Positions 10,079 to 56,579 of a stretch of 56,579 nt of DNA are shown here, piece by piece. The DNA is from Pseudonocardiales bacterium (GTDB taxonomy: Bacteria; Actinomycetota; Actinomycetes; Mycobacteriales; Pseudonocardiaceae), in contig JAFAWY010000065.1 of NCBI GenBank assembly GCA_019241525.1, positions 1 to 56,579 of the forward strand, written 5' to 3'. A program made the position numbers and the translations under genes. The notes beneath the pieces were generated by a model. That model ran no database searches, had not been told where the DNA came from, and saw only the letters and a list, made by a program, of their open reading frames with translations. Within the stretch, counting starts at the first letter, position 1. Every line of letters begins with the position of its first letter.

Positions 10079-11358
10079 TCAGGACCCGCCGCGGACCCGG
10101 ACCGTCTTGGTGGACCGGGTGTCGAGAGTCATCTCGTCGGCCGCCGTCACCTCGGCACGGAGGCGGACGGTTCCGGACGGCGCGTCGATCACCTCGACCA
10201 CACGCTCCAGCAGCTGGGCACTGGCGTCATTGCCGGAGGCAGCGGCCAGTGCCACGGCACGACCTAATCGGGCCGTCGCGGTGGCTTGATCACCTGCTTT
10301 GCGTGCCGTCAAGCCGTCCTGGATTGCGGTGGCCAGCTCGACTTGCCCGGTGTAGTGGGCAACGCCACGGCTGATGCGGGTGGACAATGCGCTGTCATCG
10401 GTCCAGGTGGCGGTGATCAGTCCCTGCGCGAGCTCCTCGTCGGAGCCAGTCTGGATCAGCTTCACCCGCGCAGCGAGAATTTTCTCGCCGACATGTCGCG
10501 GTGTGAGGTGCACTTTGATGTGGTAGTCGCGGGTTTCAGCTCCCCACGATCCGAGCGGGTAATCACCGGTTCGCTTACCCGACTCGATACGCCGGGACGT
10601 CAGATCCTCCACGGTGGGCGCCACCTGCTTGACGAACTGCACGGTGGCATCCGGAGGCGTCCACAGCCGCAAGGCCACATCAGACAGGCGCTTGCCCATT
10701 GCCGTACCCATGATCGCGCGGAAATCGGCAGCCAGGTCGGCGGGATCCGCGACGATGTCCACGCTGCCCAGCAGCGTGGAGGAGATCGCGCGCAGCTCCT
10801 GGACCTCCCAGTCGGTGCCCACCCCGCGGCAGTCGCAGGTGAACTTGCCCACGCAGTCCTGGAGTGCGGCGGCGAATTGGCTCGGGTGCTCACCGTTTTG
10901 GCCGTCGGTGAGCAGGATGGCGTGATTGACGGCGCCCGGATGCTGGTCGGCGATGTGAGCCGCGAGCCGAAGCCAAGCACCAATTCCGGTACCGCCGTCG
11001 GCCTGTAATCGTTGGACCTGCGCCGTTGCTTCCGCCCGCGTGCGGGCGCTCGCCATGGCGCTGGCAGACAACGACGGGTAGACCTGCTCGGCGGTCTCGG
11101 TGCCCGCGATCACGGTGAACGACACGCCCTCGCGCAGCTCCGCGATCGCGGCCTCCGTGGCCCGCCGAGCCGACACGATCTTGTCTCCACTCATCGATGT
11201 GGAGCAGTCGACGATGATGATCTCAAGGGCATTGTCGGTTGGCGGTGCAGCGTCCGTCGCCTCGGTCATCGTCACCGTGACGATCGCATCGACCTGCGAT
11301 CCGCTCACCGGCAGGTAGCTGTTCTGGTCGATGTCGATGGTGAAGCCCCGCGCCTCGG

Positions 11359-11362
<4 letters not shown>
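10079..11362 (-). CDS. von Willebrand factor type A (VWA) domain protein
   Basis: 427 residues. A VWA domain spans about residues 45-230 with an intact MIDAS motif: DCSTS (D52, S54, S56), a downstream T in GGTGIG, and the D of LLTDGQNG. C-terminal beta and helical segments follow, resembling the tail of other stress- and signalling-linked VWA proteins. MIDAS domains bind Mg2+ and mediate protein-protein contacts, so a scaffold role in this phospho-signalling operon is likely. ATG 11362 overlaps the PP2C stop (ATGA) and AGGAG lies 6 nt before it; the upstream extension to 11704 is a shadow. Confidence 0.88.
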
Positions 11363-15805
<4,443 letters not shown>

Positions 15806-45241: not shown

Positions 45242-46501
45242 TCAGGCGATCAGCACAGCGCGGAAGTCGTTGACGTTGGTCAGGGTAGGACCCGTCACGA
45301 TTTGATCGCCCAACGCGGCGAAGAAACGATGTCCATCGTTGTCGGCCAGCGCCCCGGCAGCTGGCACGCCGAGCTGCTCGGCTCGCCGCAGCGTGTCCGG
45401 ACCGACCAGCGCGCCGGCCACCTCCGCCGCGCCATCGACGCCGTCGGTGTCGCACGCGATGGCATACGTTCCTGCCTGCCCTCGCAGCGCTATCGCCAGC
45501 GCGAGCAGCAGTTCGGCGTTGCGGCCGCCGCAGCCGCTACCGCGTACGGTTACGGTCGTCTCGCCCCCGGAGAGCAGCACGCACGGCGCGGGCGCTGGTT
45601 GGCTATGGCGACGCACCTGGCGGGCGATGCCCGCCAGCACGATTCCCACCTCACGAGACTCGCCTTCCAGCGAGTCGCCCAGGATCACCGGCGTGACGCC
45701 GGAGCGGCGGGCGATCTCCGCGGCGGCCTCAAGCGATTGTTGTGGTGCGGCGATCACGTGATTGCGCACCCGCCCCATCCGGGAATCATCGGGTCCTGGG
45801 CAGCCTGGGCTGGTCTCCAGGTGCGCCCGAACCGCTGGCGGCACCGCCACGTGGTAGTTCGCCAGCGCCGCGAGCGCCTGCGCCGGGGTTGAGGCCTCGG
45901 GCACAGTGGGTCCAGAGGCGATGACGGCTGGATCATCGCCCGGAACGTCAGAGATCAGCAGGCCGACGGTCGCGGCCGGGAACGCGGCTGCTGCCAGCCG
46001 CCCGCCCTTGATAGCCGATAGATGCTTGCGTACCAGGTTCATCGTCTCGATCGGCGCTCCACAGCGCAGCAGCGCCGTGTTGGTCGCCTGCTTATCGGCC
46101 AGGGTGATGCCCGGTGCGGGCAGTGCCAGCACGGCTGAGCCGCCTCCTGAGATCAGGGCCAGCACCAGGTCGTCCGCAGTCAGCCCGGACACCAGCTCAA
46201 GAATCCGGCGCGCTGCTTGTTCACCTGCTGCGTCGGGCACCGGATGCGCCGCCTGCACCACCTCTACCTGCGCGCACGGCACCGCATGCCCGTAGCGGGT
46301 GACGACCAGACCGCTTAGCGGGCCATCCCAGGCCTGCTCCACCGCCTGCGCCATCCGCGCCGAGGCCTTGCCCGCACCAACCACGACGACCCGACCCGGC
46401 GGCCGCGGCGGCAGGAATGCCGCCACCCGCTGCAGCGGATCCGCAGCTGCCACGGCCGCGTCGAACATCGCCCGCAACAGTGCCCGTGGATCAGTGACCA
46501 C
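45242..46501 (-). CDS. Glycerate 2-kinase (MOFRL/DUF4147 family)
   Basis: 419 residues. The family landmarks are RVVVVGAGKASARMAQAVEQ near residue 37, LALISGGGSAVLALPAPGIT, LRCGAPIETMNLVRKHLSAIKGG, and the MOFRL C-terminal domain with VLLSGGETTVTVRG, GRNAELLLALAI and DGVDG. These proteins convert D-glycerate to 2-phosphoglycerate (GckA in serine-cycle methylotrophs) and were once called hydroxypyruvate reductase TtuD. It is on the same strand as the serine-cycle operon about 4.5 kb upstream and supplies its next step. Confidence 0.9.
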   Translation of the reverse strand: MVTDPRALLRAMFDAAVAAADPLQRVAAFLPPRPPGRVVVVGAGKASARMAQAVEQAWDGPLSGLVVTRYGHAVPCAQVEVVQAAHPVPDAAGEQAARRILELVSGLTADDLVLALISGGGSAVLALPAPGITLADKQATNTALLRCGAPIETMNLVRKHLSAIKGGRLAAAAFPAATVGLLISDVPGDDPAVIASGPTVPEASTPAQALAALANYHVAVPPAVRAHLETSPGCPGPDDSRMGRVRNHVIAAPQQSLEAAAEIARRSGVTPVILGDSLEGESREVGIVLAGIARQVRRHSQPAPAPCVLLSGGETTVTVRGSGCGGRNAELLLALAIALRGQAGTYAIACDTDGVDGAAEVAGALVGPDTLRRAEQLGVPAAGALADNDGHRFFAALGDQIVTGPTLTNVNDFRAVLIA

Positions 46502-46794: not shown

Positions 46795-47895
46795 TCACCT
46801 ACCGGGGCGGGCGAGGCGCAGCACGGTTCCCACTGCCTGCTTGGCGGCGCGGTGACACTTCGCTTCGGCAGCCGCGGTGGGAAGCCTTTCGAAGTAATAA
46901 ACATGCACAGGCACTTCGTGCGCCCCGAAAGTGCTCTTGAATCTTTTTAGTTCCTCAGTCTGGTAGATCCCGAAGTCGTAGCTCAGCCGCCCTTCGGCGC
47001 ACGCCGCCTCGATCGCGTGTCGGTGCAGCAATTCATTGGCGCCGGTGCCCCGCGCCCGTTCCTTGTCCATGGCACCCCGCCAGTAGGTGGCCCGCGGACC
47101 CCGGGTAAGCACGACAATGCCAGCAAGAGGTTCACCGTCGCGCCACGCTATCGACACCGTGCAACGCTGGCCCATCCGGTGTGCCACGGTCGCGAACTTG
47201 CTCTGCGGCTCCCGGCGCTGCGCGCGCCAGCGCATTAACGACAGCGGCTGGCCTCGCTGTTGAGCCCATCTGTCGACGGAACTTCGGTACAGCTCGTCAA
47301 ACACGGGAATAAGTCGACCGGTATTGTCCGATTCTACAACAACGCCTCGACGTTCTGCCTTGCGGGAATTGGATCGTACTTTGCTGGTGAACCGCTGCGA
47401 CCATACTGTCGAAAAACCACCGCTGAGATCGAGTACTTGCGCTGTCCGGGCGGTGGAATACAGCGTGCTTGGAGCCACTGATGCCCATGCCGTGGCGTCG
47501 TGGTCCGCCACCATGACGCGGGTACGCAGACCGGGATGGCGCTGGATCTCCTCGATCAGAGCGCGGATCTCACCGGGCGACGCGGGACCGCCTTCGCTGA
47601 CCAAACCACCTGCATCAGCGCCCAGACCCCACCCCTGCGGCGGTGATTCAAATGGACCCAGGAACGAAGGAGTTCCTGTTTTTCGCAGGCGGGGCAGGAT
47701 CAGTCGCCGGCCATCTTCTCCGCGGAACAGCAAGGTCGCATCTGAGAACCGGCTACAACTACATATGCAGTCAATCCACTCGGGAGTCTTGGACAGTGCA
47801 ATGCTCTCATCGCGGGCCACGAGGTCATCCCACACCGGGCGAGCGTCTCCACCTTCGGCTTCAAGGGAGACCCGATACGCCTGAGAAAGCACCAT
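46795..47895 (-). CDS. FemAB/GNAT-fold protein, copy 1
   Basis: 366 residues. The C-terminal half is a GNAT-like/FemAB-type domain: FTSKVRSNSRKAERRGVVVE, FATVAHRMGQRCTVSIAWRD, LAGIVVLTRGPRATYWRGAM, then the LLHRHAIEAACAEGRLSYDF and FKSTFGA motifs typical of FemAB-related polysaccharide-cluster proteins. Such proteins transfer aminoacyl groups to lipid-linked precursors or modify exported glycans. The sequence is about three-quarters identical by eye to copy 2 (49526-50623). GAGG precedes the ATG closely; GTG one codon later is also possible. It is the last gene of the cluster. Confidence 0.78.
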   Translation of the reverse strand: MVLSQAYRVSLEAEGGDARPVWDDLVARDESIALSKTPEWIDCICSCSRFSDATLLFRGEDGRRLILPRLRKTGTPSFLGPFESPPQGWGLGADAGGLVSEGGPASPGEIRALIEEIQRHPGLRTRVMVADHDATAWASVAPSTLYSTARTAQVLDLSGGFSTVWSQRFTSKVRSNSRKAERRGVVVESDNTGRLIPVFDELYRSSVDRWAQQRGQPLSLMRWRAQRREPQSKFATVAHRMGQRCTVSIAWRDGEPLAGIVVLTRGPRATYWRGAMDKERARGTGANELLHRHAIEAACAEGRLSYDFGIYQTEELKRFKSTFGAHEVPVHVYYFERLPTAAAEAKCHRAAKQAVGTVLRLARPGR

Positions 47896-47928
47896 ATCCT
47901 CAGACCCTTCCCCATACTTGGTTCGAAG

Positions 47929-49524
47929 TCATGACGCGCTGGCCCAGCGCGTCATGGTGGCCCGGAGCACGAGTATGTAGACGCCAAGCGCCACAATCCC
48001 GCCCAAGGCAAGAAGCCCTAGAGTGCCGAGCTGACCGCCGTTGTGGACATGCTGCACCCACCACACCGCAGCGGCCACCGGCACCATTGCGACCGCGGCT
48101 AAGAGCGCGCCGGCAATGGGGCGGGGCTCGACAAATTGCTCGGGCCGCATTTCCCGGCGCAGCCTGGTCAGCACCATCCCTGCGGCGGCGAGCTCACCGG
48201 CCAGGATGGCCACCACCAGCCAGACCAGTCGGGACCCGCCTGCCGGGACGAGCAGCGCCGACATGGCGACGAGGACCTTGACCGCGAACGCCACCTGGCT
48301 GGCCCGCCGCGGGATGCGGTCGTCCAATCGTGCGTAGAGGGCCTGGTATCCGAGATCGCTTACGCCGCCGACGAGCTGAGCAACTGCCACCACCGCCAAG
48401 CAGGTGGCCAGTGGGCCGATCAGCGCGGCATGGCGCAGCTCACCGTTGGCAAGGATGTTCGCCGTAGGCCCGGACAGCACCGCCAGCAACACCAGCAGCG
48501 GCAGGCTGGCGATCACGGCATAGGACAACCCCTGGCGCCAGGCCGAACCGAACGTGGCGGTGTCCTCGCTGTGGGCGGCGTGCGCTAGTCCGGGCAGCGC
48601 GGCCATCGACACCGCCCGAGCACTGACGTAGGACAGCGAGAACAACACCGCGTAGGACAGCTGCACGACGAACACGCCACCGGGCACCGAACCGGCCAGT
48701 GCAAGGAGCACGTACATGGCCGCTGCCGGGCAGGCCGCCACTCCCACCGAGCGCATCAGCCTGCGGGTCACCGCGAGCGCCTCGGCATCGTGCCGCCAGC
48801 CCAGCGACGGTCGGGTCAGCAGCCCTACCCGGGCTGCGCCGAACAGCTGTAGTGCTGTATGCAGCACCACTGCCAACGTACTGCCCGCTCCTAGCGTGAT
48901 CACCAGTTCGATCGGCACATGATCAAAGTCGAGACCTGTCCCGTAATACCAGCCGGCGAGCACCACCGTCAGGGTTACCCCGATGTTCTCCACCGCCGGG
49001 GCGGCCGACGCCAACGCGAAACGTCCACGTGCTCGTTGTGCGGCCACGCCGAGATCAGCCAGGCAATACAGCAGGATCTGGGGCGCGACGAGCAGCACCA
49101 GCAACGTGGTCAGCCAGAGGCCGCGCCCCCGTTGTGCCGGATCGGGGATCCCCGCGCTCAGCGTCCACGCCACCGCCGGGGCAGCAATGATCAACAACGC
49201 GACCACTCCGGCCGACACGGCGAGCAACCATCCTGTCACCCGGCCGAGGGTCTCCCGAGCCTGGGGCAGGCCGCCGACGTCGATGGTCCGGACCACCGCG
49301 GGTACCAGCACCATCGCCAGCACCGGCCCGGCGATCAACGTGAAGACGATGTTCGGCACGAAATAGCTGGCCTGGAAGGAGTTGGCGAAGTAGGTGGGAC
49401 CCAGTACCGCACCGATCACTACCACCCGGAGCAGTCCGGTGGCCCGGCTGACCAGCGTCCACCCGGCAACGGTGGCGGAGTTGCGCGCCGTGGTGCTGGG
49501 AATTGTCTCTTCGAGGGCTGTCAC
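47929..49524 (-). CDS. MurJ/MviN-like lipid flippase
   Basis: 531 residues with about 13-14 membrane helices and the MOP/MviN pattern: AGWTLVSRATGLLRVVVIGA, FQASYFVPNIVFTLIAGPVLAMV, and SYAVLFSLSYVSARAVSMAA in the middle. Members flip lipid II or other polyprenyl-linked units across the membrane. GTG 49524 was chosen: it lies 1 nt after the TAA of FemAB copy 2 and has AGGTGG upstream. Together the three genes form a likely polymer-export module. Housekeeping MurJ is often longer in actinobacteria, so this may be an accessory flippase. Confidence 0.85.
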   Translation of the reverse strand: MTALEETIPSTTARNSATVAGWTLVSRATGLLRVVVIGAVLGPTYFANSFQASYFVPNIVFTLIAGPVLAMVLVPAVVRTIDVGGLPQARETLGRVTGWLLAVSAGVVALLIIAAPAVAWTLSAGIPDPAQRGRGLWLTTLLVLLVAPQILLYCLADLGVAAQRARGRFALASAAPAVENIGVTLTVVLAGWYYGTGLDFDHVPIELVITLGAGSTLAVVLHTALQLFGAARVGLLTRPSLGWRHDAEALAVTRRLMRSVGVAACPAAAMYVLLALAGSVPGGVFVVQLSYAVLFSLSYVSARAVSMAALPGLAHAAHSEDTATFGSAWRQGLSYAVIASLPLLVLLAVLSGPTANILANGELRHAALIGPLATCLAVVAVAQLVGGVSDLGYQALYARLDDRIPRRASQVAFAVKVLVAMSALLVPAGGSRLVWLVVAILAGELAAAGMVLTRLRREMRPEQFVEPRPIAGALLAAVAMVPVAAAVWWVQHVHNGGQLGTLGLLALGGIVALGVYILVLRATMTRWASAS

Positions 49525-49525
49525 C

Positions 49526-50623
49526 TTACCCACCTGCATGCGCAAGGCGCATTACCGCTCGGATAGCGTGCTTCGCCGCGCCATAACACCGGTCTTCGGC
49601 GGCTGCTGTGGGAATCTTTTCGAGGTAGTAGACGTGCACAGGAACTTCGGTTGCTCCGAAGGTGCCCTTGAACCTCTTGAGATGGTCAGTCTGGGAGAGA
49701 CCGAAATCGTAGCTTTGCCGTCCGCTGGCGCATGCGGCCTCGATCGCGCAACGATGGAGAAGCTCGTTGGCGCCAGTTCCACTGGCACGTTCTTTGTCCA
49801 TGGCGCCGCGCCAATAGGTTGCCCGTGGACCCTTGGCCAAAACGATGATGCCTGCGATGGGCTCGCCGTGCCGCCAGGCTATCCACACGGTGCACTGCTC
49901 GCCTAGTACCCTTGCTACTGTGGCGAACTTGCTTTGCGGATGTTGGCGCTGCGAAAGCCAACGCATCAACGTGACCGGATGGCCCCGTTCCTGAGCCCAC
50001 CTGTCGACGGAAATCCGATACAGCTGGTCGAATACGGGGATGAGCCGGCCAGTGTTGTCCGATTCCACCACAACGCCGCGTCGCTCTGCTTTGCGCGAAT
50101 TGGAGCGGACTTTGCTCGTAAACCGCTTCGACCAAACAGTAGAAAAACTGCCCTGGAGGTCAAGGACCTGCGCAGTCCGTGCAATCGAGTAGGTCCTCGG
50201 CGGAGTAACTGATGCCCATGCCCGAGCATCGTCGCCGCCGACCACAATGCGAGTACGCAGACCGGACTGGCGTCGGACCTCTTGGATCAGCGCACCGATC
50301 TCGTAGGGTGACGCGGGCCCTCCTTCGCTGACGAAACCACTCGCGTCGGCGCCAAGATTCCAATGCCTGGGGGGTGATGAATAGATACCCGGTAGCGAGG
50401 CTCCGGTTTTCCGAACCCGTGGCAGAATAAGTCGACGCCCGTCTTCGCCGCGAAATAGTAACGTCGCATCTGAGAACTGATCGGAACTGCATATGCAGTC
50501 GGACCATTGTGGTGTCTTCGATAGTGCGGTGCTTGGATCCTGGCTGACCAGCTCTTCCCAGGCCAGCCGGGCATCTATACCCTCAGCCTCAACAGAAACC
50601 CGATGGGCTCGCGAAATCACCAT
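49526..50623 (-). CDS. FemAB/GNAT-fold protein, copy 2
   Basis: About 365 residues, co-linear with copy 1 over the whole length (LSKTP near residue 36; FTSKVRSNSRKAERRGVVVE; RATYWRGAMDKERASGTGAN; RLAHAGG at the end). The high similarity indicates a duplication on both sides of the flippase gene. ATG 50623 aligns with the start of copy 1; the frame upstream to 50704 is read-through. Its stop abuts the flippase start. A role in envelope-polymer modification is inferred. Confidence 0.78.
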   Translation of the reverse strand: MVISRAHRVSVEAEGIDARLAWEELVSQDPSTALSKTPQWSDCICSSDQFSDATLLFRGEDGRRLILPRVRKTGASLPGIYSSPPRHWNLGADASGFVSEGGPASPYEIGALIQEVRRQSGLRTRIVVGGDDARAWASVTPPRTYSIARTAQVLDLQGSFSTVWSKRFTSKVRSNSRKAERRGVVVESDNTGRLIPVFDQLYRISVDRWAQERGHPVTLMRWLSQRQHPQSKFATVARVLGEQCTVWIAWRHGEPIAGIIVLAKGPRATYWRGAMDKERASGTGANELLHRCAIEAACASGRQSYDFGLSQTDHLKRFKGTFGATEVPVHVYYLEKIPTAAAEDRCYGAAKHAIRAVMRLAHAGG

Positions 50624-50981
50624 GCAGCCGGCCTCTCTCGGTGCTCGCTTCTGCGGGGTGGAGTCCTCGGCAACAGGCAGATTGTCCTGCCCGGGCCGCA
50701 GCATCGCCAGTGCTGGCTGGTAGATCGAGTGAGCAGTTGGGGCGCCGCGGCGGCATCGTCGGCAGGCGCGCGAATAGCGGCAGCGCTAATGGCTGCGAGT
50801 TCCCCCAGCATATCCTTGTCATCGTGTTAACGGCCGATGACGTTACGGAACGTGGCGCAGTCGGCACGTAACCACACGACTGGGTGGCGGCAAGGTGCCC
50901 CGACCTGGGGAGAACCCGGCGTATGTGCTCGCCCACCACCCGATAGTGGTGGACAGTGGTGGCTCGTCGAGCTACTACACC
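50624..50981. other. Intergenic, 358 bp, possible small upstream ORF
   Basis: Between the 3' end of the hydroxypyruvate reductase and FemAB copy 2, both on -. A 64-codon frame on - (50811-50617) begins MLGELAAISAAAIRAPADD and ends in a TGA that overlaps the ATG of copy 2, but its second half looks non-coding. The promoter of the FemAB-flippase cluster should be here. Confidence 0.35.
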
Positions 50982-51950
50982 TCAGGCGACGCGACAGGAG
51001 GGTTCGCGACCCTCCAGGAAGTCCTGCAGGTTATCCAGCACGAGCATGCCCATGGCAGTGCGGGTTTCCAGGGTGGCGCTGCCCAGATGGGGCAGCAGCA
51101 CGGCGTTGTCCAGCTCGATCAGCTCTTGCGTGATTTGCGGCTCGTTTTCGTAGACGTCAAGTCCGGCACCGGCGATTGTCCCCGACTTCAGCGCCTCGAT
51201 CAGCGCCTTCTGGTCGACGACGTCGCCGCGAGCGCTGTTGATCAGGAAGGCGGTGGGCTTCATCTGAGCCAGCGCCGCGGCATCGATGAGATGGGTGTTC
51301 CCGCTGCTTCCCGGCATGTGTAGGGACACGAAGTCAGCGGTCTGAAGGACTTCTTCCTTGGTGCTGACCCGGCGGGCACCGGGGATGCCGTGGTCGGGTT
51401 CGAAGTCCACCGGGTCGTAGAAGACCACCGGCATACCAAAGCCGAAGTGGCCGCGGCGCGCTACCGCCACCCCGATCCGGCCCATGCCGAGGATGCCCAG
51501 TGTCTTGCCGGTGACATCGGCGCCCATCATGTGGGTGGGTCGCCACCCGGTCCAGCGCCCCGCGCGGACCTCACGTTCCCCCTCGCCGGCCCGGCGGGCC
51601 ACCATCAGCATGAGAGTCATCGCGGTGTCCGCGGTGGTGTTGGTGAGCACTCGTGGTGTGTTGGTGACCACGATCCCGGCCTTGGCGGCGGCCTCGACGT
51701 CGATGTGGTTGTAACCGACGCCGAAGTTGCCCAGAAATCGAGTCCGCACCTCACCCTCGAACAGTTCGGCCGGCAGGCGGTCGGAGACGGTGGGTAACAC
51801 CACATCGGCCTGCTCCAACGCAGCCCGTAGCCCGTCGCGGCCCAGTGGCACGTCGTCGGCGTTGAGCTGGACATGGGGGAATCGGCGCGCAAGCTCCTGC
51901 TCGACCGATTCAGGCCAGCGCCGGGTGACGACGATGACGGGTTCGTCCAC
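50982..51950 (-). CDS. D-2-hydroxyacid dehydrogenase, probable hydroxypyruvate/glyoxylate reductase
   Basis: 322 residues. The NAD(P)-binding GILGMGRIG is near residue 152. Catalytic residues are in NSARGDVVD (R241), DVYENEP (E270) and LLPHLGSAT (H288). The FGVGYNHIDVEAA stretch is typical of GyaR/HprA. In the serine cycle this enzyme reduces hydroxypyruvate to D-glycerate; glyoxylate is an alternative substrate. GTG 51950 has GGAGG 6 nt upstream. It starts 17 bp after the mtkB stop and is the last gene of the operon. Confidence 0.9.
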   Translation of the reverse strand: MDEPVIVVTRRWPESVEQELARRFPHVQLNADDVPLGRDGLRAALEQADVVLPTVSDRLPAELFEGEVRTRFLGNFGVGYNHIDVEAAAKAGIVVTNTPRVLTNTTADTAMTLMLMVARRAGEGEREVRAGRWTGWRPTHMMGADVTGKTLGILGMGRIGVAVARRGHFGFGMPVVFYDPVDFEPDHGIPGARRVSTKEEVLQTADFVSLHMPGSSGNTHLIDAAALAQMKPTAFLINSARGDVVDQKALIEALKSGTIAGAGLDVYENEPQITQELIELDNAVLLPHLGSATLETRTAMGMLVLDNLQDFLEGREPSCRVA

Positions 51951-51967
51951 GAGGATCCTCCAGCAGC

Positions 51968-52966
51968 TCAGTTTTCCCGGGTTGAATGCTGTTGAAGATG
52001 ATCAATAGGGGGGTTGGTTGCTCCTGAAAAGCCACCAACTGCAGGGGAGCTACCGACCTCGGAACACCGGCCAAGGAGGGCGTGCTCGGCCAGGACACGG
52101 GCGACGGTCTCGCCGATGCACGACGGGTTGGGCGCCACGGTGATCCCGGCGGCGGTCAGGATCTCGATTTTTTCCTGGGCGGATTCTCCGGCCCCGGAAA
52201 CGATCGCACCGGCGTGGCCCATTTTGCGGCCCTTGGGAGCCGACAGCCCAGCGATGTAGGCGATGACCGGTTTGGTCATGTGCTGGCGGACGTACTCAGC
52301 GCCCTCGACTTCCTGCGGGCCACCGATCTCGCCGACCATGACCACCGCGTCGGTGTCCGGATCGGCTTCGAACAACGCGAGGTGGTCACGGAACGACGTC
52401 CCGTTGACCGGATCGCCGCCGATGCCCACCGACGTGGACACCCCGAGACCCAGCGCCTTCATTTGCGAGGCGGCCTCGTAGCCCAGGGTGCCGGAGCGAC
52501 CGATCACCCCGACCCGGCCAGGCAGGTAGATGTGGCCGGGCATGATGCCCAGCAGCGACCGCCCGGGGGAGATGGTGCCCGCGCAGTTCGGTCCGGTCAG
52601 GGTCATCTTCTGCTGGGCCCGGTAGCGCCGCATGTACCGCTTGACCTTGAGCATGTCGTGCATCGGGATGCCGTCGGTGATGCAGGCGCAAAACCGGATT
52701 CCCGCGTCGGCGGCTTCCATCAAGGCGTCGGCTGCGAACGGAGGCGGTACAAACACGATCGAGGCGGTGGCCCCGGTATGTGCCACAGCCTCTTTCATGG
52801 TGTTGAACACGGGGAGGTCGAGCACGGTGTCGCCACCCTTGCCGGGGGTGACTCCGGCGACGACCTGCGTGCCGTAGCTGATCATTTCCTCGGTGTGGAA
52901 GCGGCCGATACGCCCGGTGATGCCCTGCACCACCACCCGGGTGTGCTCGTCGATCAAGATGGCCAT
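51968..52966 (-). CDS. mtkB: Malate-CoA ligase alpha subunit (SucD-like)
   Basis: 332 residues of the CoA-binding/ligase fold. VVVQGITGRIGRFHTEEMI starts the CoA domain, GPNCAGTISPG and GVIGRSGTLGYEA follow, and the phosphohistidine loop is KGRKMGHAGAI (H251). By sequence alone it could be succinyl-CoA synthetase alpha. The neighbours (malyl-CoA lyase, aminotransferase) point to malate thiokinase, which makes malyl-CoA. About 35 extra residues end the protein. AGGAGG lies 3 nt before ATG 52966. Confidence 0.85.
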   Translation of the reverse strand: MAILIDEHTRVVVQGITGRIGRFHTEEMISYGTQVVAGVTPGKGGDTVLDLPVFNTMKEAVAHTGATASIVFVPPPFAADALMEAADAGIRFCACITDGIPMHDMLKVKRYMRRYRAQQKMTLTGPNCAGTISPGRSLLGIMPGHIYLPGRVGVIGRSGTLGYEAASQMKALGLGVSTSVGIGGDPVNGTSFRDHLALFEADPDTDAVVMVGEIGGPQEVEGAEYVRQHMTKPVIAYIAGLSAPKGRKMGHAGAIVSGAGESAQEKIEILTAAGITVAPNPSCIGETVARVLAEHALLGRCSEVGSSPAVGGFSGATNPPIDHLQQHSTREN

Positions 52967-53028
52967 GACCCTCCTCAGTTCGTGGCCTCCACCAGCGGAT
53001 CTCGACCAGCGGATGTCAACCCGCGGCG

Positions 53029-53061
53029 CTCAACCGGTCCTCAACCGGCCCTCAACCGGCA
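53029..53061. repeat. Three 11-bp tandem repeats (CTCAACCGGYC) at the mtkA-mtkB junction
   Basis: CTCAACCGGTC, CTCAACCGGCC and CTCAACCGGCA are contiguous; the last runs over the mtkA stop (53052). Two copies of ACCAGCGGAT occur just beyond. Probably slippage-derived spacer sequence. Confidence 0.6.
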
Positions 53062-54227
53062 CTGACGCTGCCCACAACGGCGACGGCTTTCTGAGCCGCG
53101 TCAGCCAGAGAGTCCGCGGTGATGATGGGTAGTCCCGAATCCCGGAGCATGGCCTGGCCCTCCTCGACGTGGGTGCCGGCCAGCCGCACCACTACGGGGA
53201 TTTTCACCTCGAGTTGCTTGAACGCGTCGATGATGCCCTGGGCGACCCAGTCGCACCGGTTGATCCCGGCGAAGATGTTGATCAACATTGTCTCGACGTT
53301 CTTGTCGTGCAGGACCGCGCGGAATGCCTTGAGCACCCGCTCGGGTGAGGCGCCGCCGCCGATATCCAGAAAATTCGCTGGTTCGCCTCCGGCCAGCTTG
53401 ATCATGTCCATGGTCGCCATCGCCAAGCCGGCCCCGTTGATCATGCAGCCGATGTTGCCGTCCAGGCCGACGTAGGCCAGCCCGCGATCGGCGGCATGGC
53501 TTTCCCGGGCGTCTTCCTGGCTGCGGTCGCGCAGCTCGGAGATCTCCAGGTGCCGGAAAAGCGCGTTGTCGTCAAAGGACATCTTGGCGTCCACCGCGAC
53601 CAGGCTGCCCTTGGTCGTGACCACCAGTGGGTTGATCTCCAGCATGGTGGCCTCAAGATCACGAAAGGCGCGGTAGGCCCGCCGGAACACCCGGGTGGCC
53701 TGGGCGGTCAGCGTCGGGGGCAGACCCAGCGCGAAGGCGATCTCGCGAGCCTGGAATTCAAGGAAACCGACCGCAGGCTCGATCGTGGTCCGGATCAGCG
53801 CCTCCGGTTTGGATGTGGCCAACTCCTCGATCTCCATGCCGCCCTCGGTTGAGGCGATGATGCACACCCGCTCGATGCGGCGGTCCAGCACGATGCCGAA
53901 GTACAGCTCCCGGGCGATATCAGTGGCCTCCTCCACGTATACCCGGTAGATCAGCTTGCCCCGGGGGGCGGACTGCTTGGTGACCAGCCGCCGGCCGAAC
54001 ATGCTGTTGGCGACGTCTTGCACCTCGTGGTCGGAATAGCAGATCTTCACCCCGCCGGCCGCACCGCGGCCGCCGGCGTGCACCTGGGCCTTGACGACCC
54101 AGGCCGACCCGCCGATCTCGGTGCACCGGTAGGACGCCTGCTCGGGGCTGTAGGCCAGGCCACCGCGGGGGACAGGTACGTCGAACCGGGCGAGGATCTC
54201 CTTGGCCTGGTACTCGTGAATGTCCAC
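53052..54227 (-). CDS. mtkA: Malate-CoA ligase beta subunit (SucC-like ATP-grasp)
   Basis: 391 residues. [20 protein letters not shown] is the N-terminus, [11 protein letters not shown] the ATP-grasp glycine loop, [16 protein letters not shown] the Mg site, and [19 protein letters not shown] with [13 protein letters not shown] the CoA-ligase part. FDDNALFRH and [11 protein letters not shown] correspond to regions conserved in MtkA. It makes malyl-CoA together with the alpha subunit, using ATP. GTG 54227 has GGGGA 7 nt upstream, 13 bp after the lyase stop. Confidence 0.87.
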
Positions 54228-54240
54228 TCGCAGTCCCCTT

Positions 54241-55194
54241 TCAGGCTCGGCTGGCCGCGGCCGCCCTGATTGCCGTGTCCATCGCGATCACCGTCTGCGC
54301 CATCCGCTCCGATGCGGCGTCAATCATCTTGCCGTCCACCGAGGCCGCGCCCCTGCCTTGGGCCTCCGCTTGGCGCAGCGCGTCGATAATCCGCCGGGCC
54401 CGGTCGACCTCAGCTTCCGGGGGGCTGAACACTTCGTTTGCCAGCTCAATCTGGCTGGGGTGGATCGCCCACTTGCCCTCACATCCGAGTGCCGCGGCCC
54501 GCCGTGCGCTGGACCGGAAACCGTCGGGATCGGAGTAGTCGCCGAACGGGCCATCGATCGGGCGCAACCCGTAGGCGCGGCACGCCACGATCATCCGGGA
54601 CAGCGCGAAGTGCCACTGGTCGCCGGGGTAATCCGGGTTCAGGCCGCCGATGCTGACTGTGCGGGCCCGGTTGCTGGCGGCGTAGTCGGCCACCCCGAAG
54701 TGCAACGCCTCCAACCGGCCAGGCGCGGCGGCGATGGCTTCCACGTTGGCCATTCCCAGCGCGGTCTCGATCAGCGCCTCGAGACCGACCCGGCGCTCGT
54801 ATCCCTGTGCCTGCTCGATCTGCGTCACCAGGGTTTCCACGCAGTACAGATCTGCGGGCACGCCGACTTTGGGCACCAGGATGGTGTGCAGGCGGTCACC
54901 GGCCTGTTCCATAATGTCGATGACGTCGCGGTACATGTAGTGGGTGTCCAGCCCGTTGATCCGCACCGACACCGCCTTGCCCTTAGCCGCCCAGTCGATG
55001 TCTCGCAGCGCCTGGATCACATTGCGGCGGGCCTGTTCCTTGTCCGGCGGTGCTACGGCGTCCTCGAGGTCGAGAAAGACGACGTCGGCCGCGCTGTTCG
55101 CCGCCTTCTCGATAAAGGTGGGATTGGATCCGGGCACTGCCAGCTCACTGCGCTGCAATCGCGGCCGGCGCATCGGGTAGAAGGTGTGGCTCAT
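54241..55194 (-). CDS. mcl: Malyl-CoA lyase (HpcH/HpaI/CitE-family CoA-ester lyase)
   Basis: 317 residues. The TIM-barrel CitE-like signature is complete: [76 protein letters not shown] (metal-binding Glu), [13 protein letters not shown] and [19 protein letters not shown]. It splits malyl-CoA to acetyl-CoA and glyoxylate. Related lyases act on citramalyl- or methylmalyl-CoA, but the operon argues for malyl-CoA. AGGAGG lies about 10 nt before ATG 55194. The aminotransferase stop is 75 bp upstream. Confidence 0.9.
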
Positions 55195-55269
55195 CGCACT
55201 GGCTCCTCCTTGAGCACAGCTGTTGCTCGGAAGTTCCGGGACGGCTACTGCACCACGTATTGGGGCAAT

Positions 55270-56487
55270 CTATTGGGGTGAGGTGGCCCCCTGTCCACCA
55301 ACGTCCGTCCCGGTTTCCAGTGCGGCGCGGTAATAGTTCTGGGCCGCCGCGACGCCGGCCCCGAGTTCTACCTTCGCCCCGGCGTCGGCCAGTGACATCT
55401 CCGCGCTGGCCAGCGCTGCCAGGCACATCACCTCGTTGAGATCGCCGAGGTGGCCGATCCGGAACACCTTGCCAGCGACTTTGGACAGCCCGGCACCGAA
55501 GGAGGTGCGGTACCGGTAGTAGCCGATCCGGCACACCTCCGCAGCGTCCACCTCTTCCGGGGTTCGGATGGCGGTGACGGTGTCGGAGTACCACTTCGGG
55601 TCCACTGCGCACAGCGACAGGCCCAACCCGTCCACCCCCCGGCGCACCCCTTCGGCAAGCCGGTGATGGCGGGCGAACACCTGCGGCAGGCCTTCGGCGA
55701 AGAGCAGATCCAGCGAGGCCCGCAGGCCGTGCAGCATCGGTACAGATGGGGTGTAGGGGAAATAACCTGCGTCGTTGCTCTTGAGCATGTCTTCGAAGCT
55801 GAAGTAGCAGCGTTCCATCCGGGATGACTTGTGCGCCTCCAACGCCTTGGCGCTGACTCCCAGCATGGACATCCCGGCTGGCAGCATGAAGCCCTTCTGG
55901 GAGCCGGTCACTGCCAGGTCGACGCCCCAGGCATCCTGCTCGAACGGGATCGAGGCGAGCGAGGACACTGCATCGACGTAGAGCAGCGCCTCGGAGCCGG
56001 CCTCGTCCATCACCTGACGCACCGCGGCGATGTCCGAGGTTACCCCGGTGGCCGTTTCGTTGTGGCAGGCAAAGACTCCTCTGATGCTCGGATCATCGGA
56101 CAGGTGGCGGGCGTAGTCGTCCAGCGGGACGCCCTCACCCCACTCGCGGTCGACGCAGATGACGTCCAGACCCAGCCGCCTCGCCATGTCGGCCCACAGG
56201 TGGGAGAACTGTCCGAACCGCGACATCAGCACTCGGTCACCACGGTTGAGGGTGTTGCTGATCGCCGCTTCCCACGCCCCTGTGCCCGACGACGGGTACA
56301 TGAACACCCGGCCGGTCTCGTTGGCGAAGACCCTTTTCAGATCAGCAAATAGCGGCAGGGTCAGGTCCGGGAAATCTGGTGCCCGGTGATCCTGCTGGGG
56401 AACGTTCATCGCGCGGCGCACCGCGTCGGGGACGTTGGTCGGGCCGGGGACGTATAAGTGCACGGGTCCTGTTGCCATGGCGGTCAC
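55270..56487 (-). CDS. sga: Serine-glyoxylate aminotransferase (class V PLP enzyme)
   Basis: 405 residues. LYVPGPTNVPDAVRRAMNVP and DHRAPDFPDLTLPLF are the family N-terminus, YPSSGTGAWEAAI is the PLP-phosphate region, DAVSSLASIPF holds the ring-stacking Asp, and VTGSQKGFMLPAG carries the Schiff-base lysine K198. It moves the amino group of serine to glyoxylate, giving hydroxypyruvate and glycine. GTG 56487 overlaps the upstream glyA stop (GTGA); ATG 56478 is an alternative. Confidence 0.92.
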   Translation of the reverse strand: MTAMATGPVHLYVPGPTNVPDAVRRAMNVPQQDHRAPDFPDLTLPLFADLKRVFANETGRVFMYPSSGTGAWEAAISNTLNRGDRVLMSRFGQFSHLWADMARRLGLDVICVDREWGEGVPLDDYARHLSDDPSIRGVFACHNETATGVTSDIAAVRQVMDEAGSEALLYVDAVSSLASIPFEQDAWGVDLAVTGSQKGFMLPAGMSMLGVSAKALEAHKSSRMERCYFSFEDMLKSNDAGYFPYTPSVPMLHGLRASLDLLFAEGLPQVFARHHRLAEGVRRGVDGLGLSLCAVDPKWYSDTVTAIRTPEEVDAAEVCRIGYYRYRTSFGAGLSKVAGKVFRIGHLGDLNEVMCLAALASAEMSLADAGAKVELGAGVAAAQNYYRAALETGTDVGGQGATSPQ

Positions 56488-56579
56488 CGTGCCGCGTGGG
56501 CGGTGAGCTGCGGGTACAGCGGGTAGCGCTTGGCCAGCGCGCTGGTGCGCTCAAGCAATGCCGCCCTTTTGGCGTCATC
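56484..56579 (-). CDS. glyA: Serine hydroxymethyltransferase, C-terminal 31 residues (rest outside window)
   Basis: The frame ends RTSALAKRYPLYPQL and a short tail before TGA 56484-56486. A V/L-x-x-L-x-x-R/K-F/Y-P-L-Y-P ending is the normal C-terminus of GlyA. Identity rests on about 20 residues plus context: SHMT supplies serine from glycine and methylene-THF for the next gene. Its stop overlaps the aminotransferase start by 4 nt. Confidence 0.72.
   Translation of the reverse strand, partial: DDAKRAALLERTSALAKRYPLYPQLTAHAAR

Follow-up and report, generated by a model that had tools for sequence, protein, structure and literature searches.

A predicted serine-cycle gene cluster, probably acquired from a proteobacterium, in an uncultured Pseudonocardiaceae-like genus

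Introduction

Do actinobacteria of the Pseudonocardiaceae type encode a serine cycle? The question is raised by a 56,579-nucleotide contig of a Pseudonocardiales bacterium (JAFAWY010000065.1; the whole contig is hereafter called the window), the minus strand of which carries the genes glyA, sga, mcl, mtkA, mtkB, hpr and gck near one end. The serine cycle is a route to cell material from one-carbon (C1) compounds and CO2 and is not usually credited to actinobacteria. For Methylobacterium (Methylorubrum) extorquens AM1, an excerpt of PMC2948502 lists serine hydroxymethyltransferase, serine–glyoxylate aminotransferase, hydroxypyruvate reductase, glycerate kinase, phosphoenolpyruvate carboxylase (Ppc), malate–coenzyme A (CoA) ligase, malyl-CoA lyase and the entry of formate through tetrahydrofolate (THF), and says that the strain lacks a functioning glyoxylate cycle. 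Gram-positive methylotrophy is described in an excerpt of PMC5023230 as formaldehyde assimilation by the ribulose monophosphate (RuMP) cycle. The RuMP cycle of Gram-positive methylotrophs (Arthrobacter, Mycobacterium and Bacillus) likewise assimilates C1 units in hosts that are partly actinobacterial, but it is a different pathway from the one to which the genes of the window are assigned here.

Literature searches confined to open-access PMC papers returned none that describes a serine cycle in Pseudonocardiaceae. A passage of PMC8262859 weighs against novelty; it mentions, without detail, that earlier genome-resolved metagenomics had revealed formaldehyde oxidation and assimilation and other signatures of methylotrophy in several phyla, Actinobacteria included. 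What is described here is a known pathway, probably acquired horizontally, in a lineage for which we found no such report. We consider it likely that the cluster represents the non-housekeeping half of a horizontally acquired serine cycle, which would operate on THF-bound C1 units that often come from formate.

Results

Gene content and enzyme assignments

The window is contig C135 (positions 1–56579) of the draft genome G000 (4.7 Mb in 148 contigs, 98% complete). Its predicted pathway genes are given below with the evidence for each assignment.

56484–56579, minus strand: 3′ end of glyA, serine hydroxymethyltransferase; aligns with the GlyA C-termini of loci L021 and L024–L028 of relatives
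55270–56487, minus strand: sga, serine–glyoxylate aminotransferase (class V); Pfam Aminotran_5, PDB 6pk1
54241–55194, minus strand: mcl, predicted malyl-CoA lyase; HpcH_HpaI, PDB 5ugr
53052–54227, minus strand: mtkA, predicted malate–CoA ligase β subunit; NF010647
51968–52966, minus strand: mtkB, predicted malate–CoA ligase α subunit; SucD-type models and position 3′ of mtkA
50982–51950, minus strand: hpr, NAD(P)-dependent hydroxypyruvate reductase; 2-Hacid_dh domains
45242–46501, minus strand: gck, glycerate 2-kinase, which presumably closed the ancestral cluster; DUF4147 and MOFRL

The preliminary description of this locus had noted six minus-strand genes in this order with short gaps or overlaps, and a glycerate 2-kinase 4.5 kb further on the same strand; open reading frame (ORF) coordinates and family scans bear out both statements. 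The glyA and sga genes overlap by 4 bases, and the following genes are separated by 75 (sga-mcl), 13 (mcl-mtkA), 85 (mtkA-mtkB) and 17 (mtkB-hpr) bases. The glyA remnant of 31 codons is cut by the contig end at position 56579. The complete glyA gene that was to be sought upstream is found intact at the equivalent place in relatives (438 amino acids with a stop codon in L026).

The Sga protein has serine–glyoxylate aminotransferase 6pk1 as its top PDB match (E = 5e-119). Hpr is a D-2-hydroxyacid dehydrogenase for which the glyoxylate reductase model scores best, below its curated cut-off, and Gck exceeds the Pfam cut-offs of DUF4147 and MOFRL and stays below those of both NCBIfam glycerate 2-kinase models. 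Homology and position support the assignment of these three genes. Mcl is an HpcH/HpaI aldolase that is 83–84% identical to Mcl of Pseudonocardiaceae and at most 79% identical to rhizobial Mcl. The activation of malate by MtkAB and the cleavage of malyl-CoA by Mcl are predicted activities.

These predictions would fail if the genes were paralogues with other substrates, that is, a succinyl-CoA synthetase and a citramalyl-CoA lyase-like CitE that activate no malate. MtkB exceeds the cut-offs of SucD-type α models only, and CitE-like homologues (44–53% identity among the matches listed) are common in the order. MtkA, in contrast, passes the malate-specific β model NF010647 (668 bits, cut-off 604) and lies far from the SucC-like protein of G000, which is encoded at a separate locus (contig C30) and falls in a separate clade of the tree. 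Mcl is nearer to the PDB malyl-CoA lyase 5ugr, its top match (E = 3e-129), than to other CitE-like chains; we take 5ugr to be a Methylobacterium enzyme. We therefore regard the paralogue explanation as very improbable. The mtkB gene is located 3′ of mtkA in relatives and in most of the 80 loci retrieved from other genomes. A role of sga in the β-hydroxyaspartate cycle is not supported; Sga scores 561 bits against the BhcA model (cut-off 650), and the flanking genes, to which the inspection was confined, are mcl and glyA and not bhcBCD.

Conservation and selection within the genus

The cluster is maintained under selection in the genus. The mtkA gene is present in all ten same-genus genomes searched (80–98% identity), split in G008 into two pieces on two contigs, and the mtkA matches of the ten genomes outside the genus (G011–G020) are SucC-like and only 41–44% identical. 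The order glyA-sga-mcl-mtkA-mtkB-hpr recurs in the five fetched loci of G007, G006, G002, G003 and G004 (L021 and L025–L028), so that the gene order is not due to chance. The loci of G009 (L023) and G001 (L024) are broken by contig ends. For six genes compared between the window and up to five relatives (27 comparisons, Nei-Gojobori method), the ratio of nonsynonymous to synonymous substitution rates is 0.05–0.16, with no stop codons. An apparent internal stop in mtkA of G002 was dismissed as the last codon of the gene itself.

The recurrence of the cluster bears on the possibility that the window is a proteobacterial contig mis-binned into an actinobacterial metagenome assembly. Mcl and MtkA do resemble proteobacterial proteins, and G000 is a 148-contig draft with an estimated contamination of 2.7%. 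This explanation is nevertheless scarcely credible, given that mtkA recurs in all ten other genus genomes searched, that the contig also carries PknG, MMPL, LytR-CpsA-Psr and CtaG-type genes and that the G+C content of the cluster matches that of the window.

Phylogeny and origin

MtkA was searched against contigs of other genomes, and the best 80 of at least 587 confirmed stretches were retained as loci. Among these 80, the closest MtkA proteins are those of Pseudonocardia sp. N23 (78%), an Actinophytocola metagenome-assembled genome (MAG; 75%) and Pseudonocardia nigra (75%), followed mostly by Alphaproteobacteria. The genes sga-mcl-mtkA-mtkB lie in this order on one strand in 33 of the 80 loci, are joined by hpr in 13 and by hpr-gck in two. 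The latter two belong to Aminobacter (L035), which shares the order sga-mcl-mtkA-mtkB-hpr-gck with the cluster, and Mesorhizobium sp. ES1-4 (L101), in which the same core is arranged as ppc-glyA-sga-mcl-mtkA-mtkB-hpr-gck. In Phyllobacteriaceae and Rhizobiaceae loci, Mcl is 74–79% identical.

In the MtkA tree, a clade with a Shimodaira–Hasegawa-like approximate likelihood ratio test (SH-aLRT) support of 97 unites 14 actinobacterial rows from the genus, Pseudonocardia and Actinophytocola. The clade adjoins five Rhodobacterales-type rows (98), and the SucC genes of the order, that of G000 included, fall far outside. The Mcl tree, which has no outgroup and was midpoint-rooted with the genus represented by 9 of 11 rows, gives a similar picture with lower support (93). 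Apart from such rows, both trees are proteobacterial in character, and the actinobacterial group is nested within them. Both trees were built by a quick method with SH-aLRT as the only support measure, after removal of matches covering less than 85% of the query; every second row was kept, except that the genus, named actinobacteria and SucC were retained in full, which left 64 of 101 rows for MtkA and 46 of 78 for Mcl.

The core of the cluster was probably acquired horizontally from a proteobacterium, probably an alphaproteobacterium. The mtk, mcl, sga and hpr genes and their companions differ in this respect. The glyA, ppc and gck genes are much less like their counterparts in L101 and L035 (55%, 32% and 37–38% identity, respectively) and may have an actinobacterial origin, and the cluster therefore resembles a graft onto glyA, ppc and gck genes of the host's own lineage. 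An ancestor of the Pseudonocardiaceae type would have taken up the cluster from a proteobacterium, and the genus would have kept it under selection. If members of the genus do use the cycle to assimilate C1 units, Actinomycetota would have a route from formate and CO2 to acetyl-CoA in which an alphaproteobacterial mtk-mcl-sga-hpr core is joined to glyA, ppc and folate genes of actinobacterial origin.

The trait looks rare in the order. In a sample of 397 genomes of the order, 251 have an Mcl match (E ≤ 1e-60), none of which exceeds 53% identity outside G000 among the matches listed; other genomes of the same genus were not drawn into this sample, which need not contain the Pseudonocardia carriers either. 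A plasmid search with Mcl returned 96 records, mostly proteobacterial by name and five of them from Rhodococcus, and Mcl proteins of about 78% identity are encoded on Aminobacter and Sinorhizobium plasmids. Two Acidimicrobiales MAGs (L110 and L111) carry a separate MtkA/Mcl lineage with ppc nearby on the other strand. Because the two are placed elsewhere in both the MtkA and Mcl trees, they likely represent a second, independent acquisition in another actinobacterial order.

Remaining enzymes of the cycle

The preliminary description had named ppc, ftfL, fchA and mtdA as further genes to look for. The ppc gene is present in G000 (C104:8849-11536, 951 bits) and in 9 of the 11 genus genomes, the two others being G002 and G008; the two further genera of the same family that were examined have none. 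For the folate genes, the expectation holds in part: ftfL, fchA and a FolD-like gene occur in members of the genus, and G000 itself yields no more of ftfL than its 35 N-terminal residues (80% identical). This fragment lies downstream of a mycobacterial-type MTHFR gene where contig C49 stops (position 59006), and the gene therefore appears to have been cut by the assembly. Across the genus, ftfL exceeds its cut-off in 6 of 11 genomes and is followed by fchA in G001, G004, G007 and G009. In G009, the FolD-like gene is located beside the ftfL-fchA region. The folD products of L129 and L197 are 42–58% identical to each other and to the L198 protein, which matches FolD models.

Formate dehydrogenase-type genes are found in G004, G005, G007 and G008 (77–78% identical to the P. 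nigra protein) and in G009; that of G007 exceeds the Fdh-alpha cut-off (789 versus 666). No match was obtained at E ≤ 1e-50 in G000, G003, G006 or G010, and those of G001 and G002 look NasC-like. A NasC-like molybdopterin oxidoreductase gene directly adjoins ppc in G001 and G005 (loci L194 and L195), with pieces only beside ppc in G007 (L131). G009 contains two formate dehydrogenase alpha copies that are 95% identical (C341 and C268), which may mean strain mixing.

Clusters in Pseudonocardia and Actinophytocola

The clusters identified here in P. nigra, N23 and the Actinophytocola MAG belong to the same MtkA/Mcl group as that of the genus, with 74–84% identity. In P. nigra DSM 104088 and the MAG, ppc and ftfL stand on the cluster contig, whereas the ppc gene and ftfL start of G000 are on other contigs. 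A single 60,053-base contig of P. nigra, covered by loci L034 and L197, which are identical where they overlap, combines a formate dehydrogenase-type gene, glyA, ppc, sga-mcl-mtkA-mtkB-hpr, amine genes and ftfL-fchA-folD. The formate dehydrogenase-type ORF is cut by the locus end and scores 353 bits (cut-off 666). The trimethylamine N-oxide (TMAO) permease (818 versus 690), TMAO demethylase (1187 versus 1100) and trimethylamine monooxygenase (810 versus 675) all exceed their cut-offs, and sarcosine-oxidase-type genes stay below theirs. From this gene content, P. nigra is predicted to be an amine-fed serine-cycle methylotroph, and it is a named strain in which the serine-cycle reading can be tested. 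In the genus, N-methylglutamate synthase was the one amine gene searched for, and the N-methylglutamate synthase-like protein of P. nigra has a single distant match there (G004, 32%). The P. nigra contig also carries a glutamine synthetase III-like gene and glutamate-synthase-like genes, and a gene in L034 that we take to be folC.

In the Actinophytocola MAG, one contig (L198) carries ftfL, folD, a LysR gene, sga-mcl-mtkA-mtkB-hpr-glyA and ppc. The MAG may be a mixture, because sga-mcl-mtkA recur on another of its contigs (L033) and it holds a further ftfL.

Proposed pathway and alternatives

In the proposed pathway, a C1 unit on THF, which many members of the genus would obtain from formate via FtfL, FchA and FolD, would be joined to glycine by GlyA to give serine. 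Sga would convert serine and glyoxylate to hydroxypyruvate and glycine, and Hpr and Gck would form 2-phosphoglycerate. Housekeeping enolase and Ppc would lead to oxaloacetate, from which malate dehydrogenase would produce malate. MtkAB would then activate malate to malyl-CoA, and Mcl would cleave it into acetyl-CoA and glyoxylate. If flux runs in this direction, each turn would convert one C1 unit and one CO2 to acetyl-CoA. The enzyme list is the same as that of AM1, compared without enolase and malate dehydrogenase. The differences from AM1 are the actinobacterial host, the FolD-like gene beside ftfL-fchA in G009, an ethylmalonyl-CoA pathway that is only partially matched in the genus and the lack of any pyrroloquinoline quinone (PQQ)- or N,N-dimethyl-4-nitrosoaniline (NDMA)-dependent methanol dehydrogenase found in G000. 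The serine-cycle interpretation of the preliminary description is supported by the malate-specific β model, the MtkA and Mcl trees, the gene order shared with alphaproteobacteria, the complete glyA of relatives and the ppc, ftfL, fchA and FolD results.

Several observations weigh against this interpretation. Four kinds of primary C1-oxidising enzyme were looked for in G000, and none of these four was found: there is no formate dehydrogenase match at E ≤ 1e-50, no PQQ methanol/ethanol dehydrogenase match over the cut-off, no homologue of N-methylglutamate synthase (E ≤ 1e-30) and no NDMA-methanol dehydrogenase over the cut-off, the last being without such a match in all 21 genomes. No ftfL was found in G002, G003, G006 or G010, of which G006 is 97% complete, and these four genomes form one MtkA subclade (SH-aLRT 82). 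FchA of G009 scores 102 against a model cut-off of 275. None of the NCBIfam models specific to MtkB, Sga, Hpr or Gck was matched above its cut-off. The genus genomes are all drafts, with contig numbers from 50 to 610. The 21-kb locus of Pseudonocardia sp. N23 (G409) has mcl-mtkA-mtkB with no matching sga or hpr, and ftfL in this genome consists of four short pieces of 29–74 residues within about 500 bases (C29:99987-100505), perhaps decayed in a carrier of mcl-mtkAB.

The gaps in G000, the retention of mtkA in the four genomes in which ftfL was not found and the state of N23 would suit a two-carbon (C2)/glyoxylate module that supports no growth on C1 compounds. In such a module, glyoxylate from glycolate, purines or comparable sources would be aminated to glycine, two glycines would yield serine via glycine cleavage and GlyA, and Hpr-Gck would deliver 2-phosphoglycerate, with MtkAB-Mcl running either way to balance malate, acetyl-CoA and glyoxylate. 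According to a passage of PMC8508750, a methylotrophic dioxane degrader handles glyoxylate by several routes. The combination of ATP-spending malate activation with ppc and ftfL-fchA-fdh, however, is that of the serine cycle, and the cluster contig carries ftfL in the Actinophytocola MAG and ftfL, fdh and methylated-amine genes in P. nigra. The C2/glyoxylate module is accordingly an unlikely but serious competitor, and the caution about C2 or glyoxylate salvage expressed in the preliminary description stands, with no C1-oxidising enzyme of the four kinds in G000 and 4 of 11 genus genomes without ftfL.

Methanol was rejected as the C1 source, as PQQ methanol/ethanol-family matches over the cut-off occur only in G009 and G010 of the 21 genomes. 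In G009, a PQQ-dependent alcohol dehydrogenase gene is accompanied by pqqB and pqqE, with ORFs between them (C109; L132, 6366–11370). The family model cannot tell methanol dehydrogenases from those for ethanol, and the gene lies in a stretch with a G+C content at third codon positions (GC3) above that of its flanks, which could be an island or contamination. Genes of L132 presumably include pqqC/pqqD.

Regeneration of glyoxylate was the remaining step. As in AM1, for which the excerpt cited above reports no functioning glyoxylate cycle, this step seems to proceed without isocitrate lyase: none of the 11 genus genomes has a match, and 6 of the 10 outside genomes do. A Ccr-based route may replace isocitrate lyase for glyoxylate. 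Ccr exceeds its cut-off in all 11 genus genomes, and the Ccr locus of G000 also contains a thiolase, a 3-hydroxyacyl-CoA dehydrogenase and a methylmalonyl-CoA mutase-type gene. For mesaconyl-CoA hydratase, the genus yields weak, partial matches (maximum 49 bits, with 31 bits for G000), and in 7 of 11 genomes these exceed the Pfam cut-off of 26.5. The ethylmalonyl-CoA route is therefore not established, a further point against a complete cycle.

The same genes could instead indicate acetate assimilation of the ethylmalonyl-CoA type, in which Mcl would cleave β-methylmalyl-CoA and condense acetyl-CoA with glyoxylate, and MtkAB would run in reverse to release malate and recover ATP. The lack of isocitrate lyase, the universal Ccr with its neighbours in G000 and the hydratase matches over the cut-off would fit. 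The weakness of those same matches speaks against it, Ccr is over the cut-off in 8 of the 10 outside genomes and is thus not tied to the cluster, and sga, hpr, gck, glyA and ppc would be left unexplained. We consider this explanation improbable.

The serine-cycle interpretation remains the preferred one. Because of the gaps in C1 donor, ftfL and glyoxylate route, the data fall short of demonstrating a net production of C3/C4 compounds with C1 units as the sole source, and mixotrophic or C2/glyoxylate use is possible. Tentatively, the whole uncultured Pseudonocardiaceae-like genus and scattered Pseudonocardia may be partly formate- or methyl-fed serine-cycle assimilators without isocitrate lyase and mostly without known methanol dehydrogenases. 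The conservation of a serine-cycle cluster throughout an actinobacterial genus, together with the C1 island of P. nigra, would widen the range of known hosts and provide actinobacteria with a route to acetyl-CoA from CO2 and either formate or methylamines.

Separation of gck and neighbouring genes

One block outside the pathway lies between hpr and gck.

46795–50704, minus strand: femAB–murJ-like–femAB block; assigned by Pfam

Among the loci examined, the block is found between hpr and gck only in the window and in G009 (L023). It was probably inserted there, because gck directly follows hpr in three relatives, G007, G006 and G004 (L021, L025 and L028). In G002 and G003, no gck match was found within the fetched locus. 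The femAB genes have a GC3 of 0.63–0.66, compared with 0.82–0.87 for sga to hpr. The two FemAB-like genes flank the MurJ-like gene, and each is about 71% identical at the DNA level to the G009 counterpart of the other. Among genes of other fetched loci, two in L130 are presumably metK and ahcY, and two in L032 we take to encode a dioxygenase and a P450. Elsewhere in the window, genes for a PknG-type kinase, a PP2C-like protein and a von Willebrand factor A protein form one run (10079–14588), an arrangement known from mycobacteria and their relatives.

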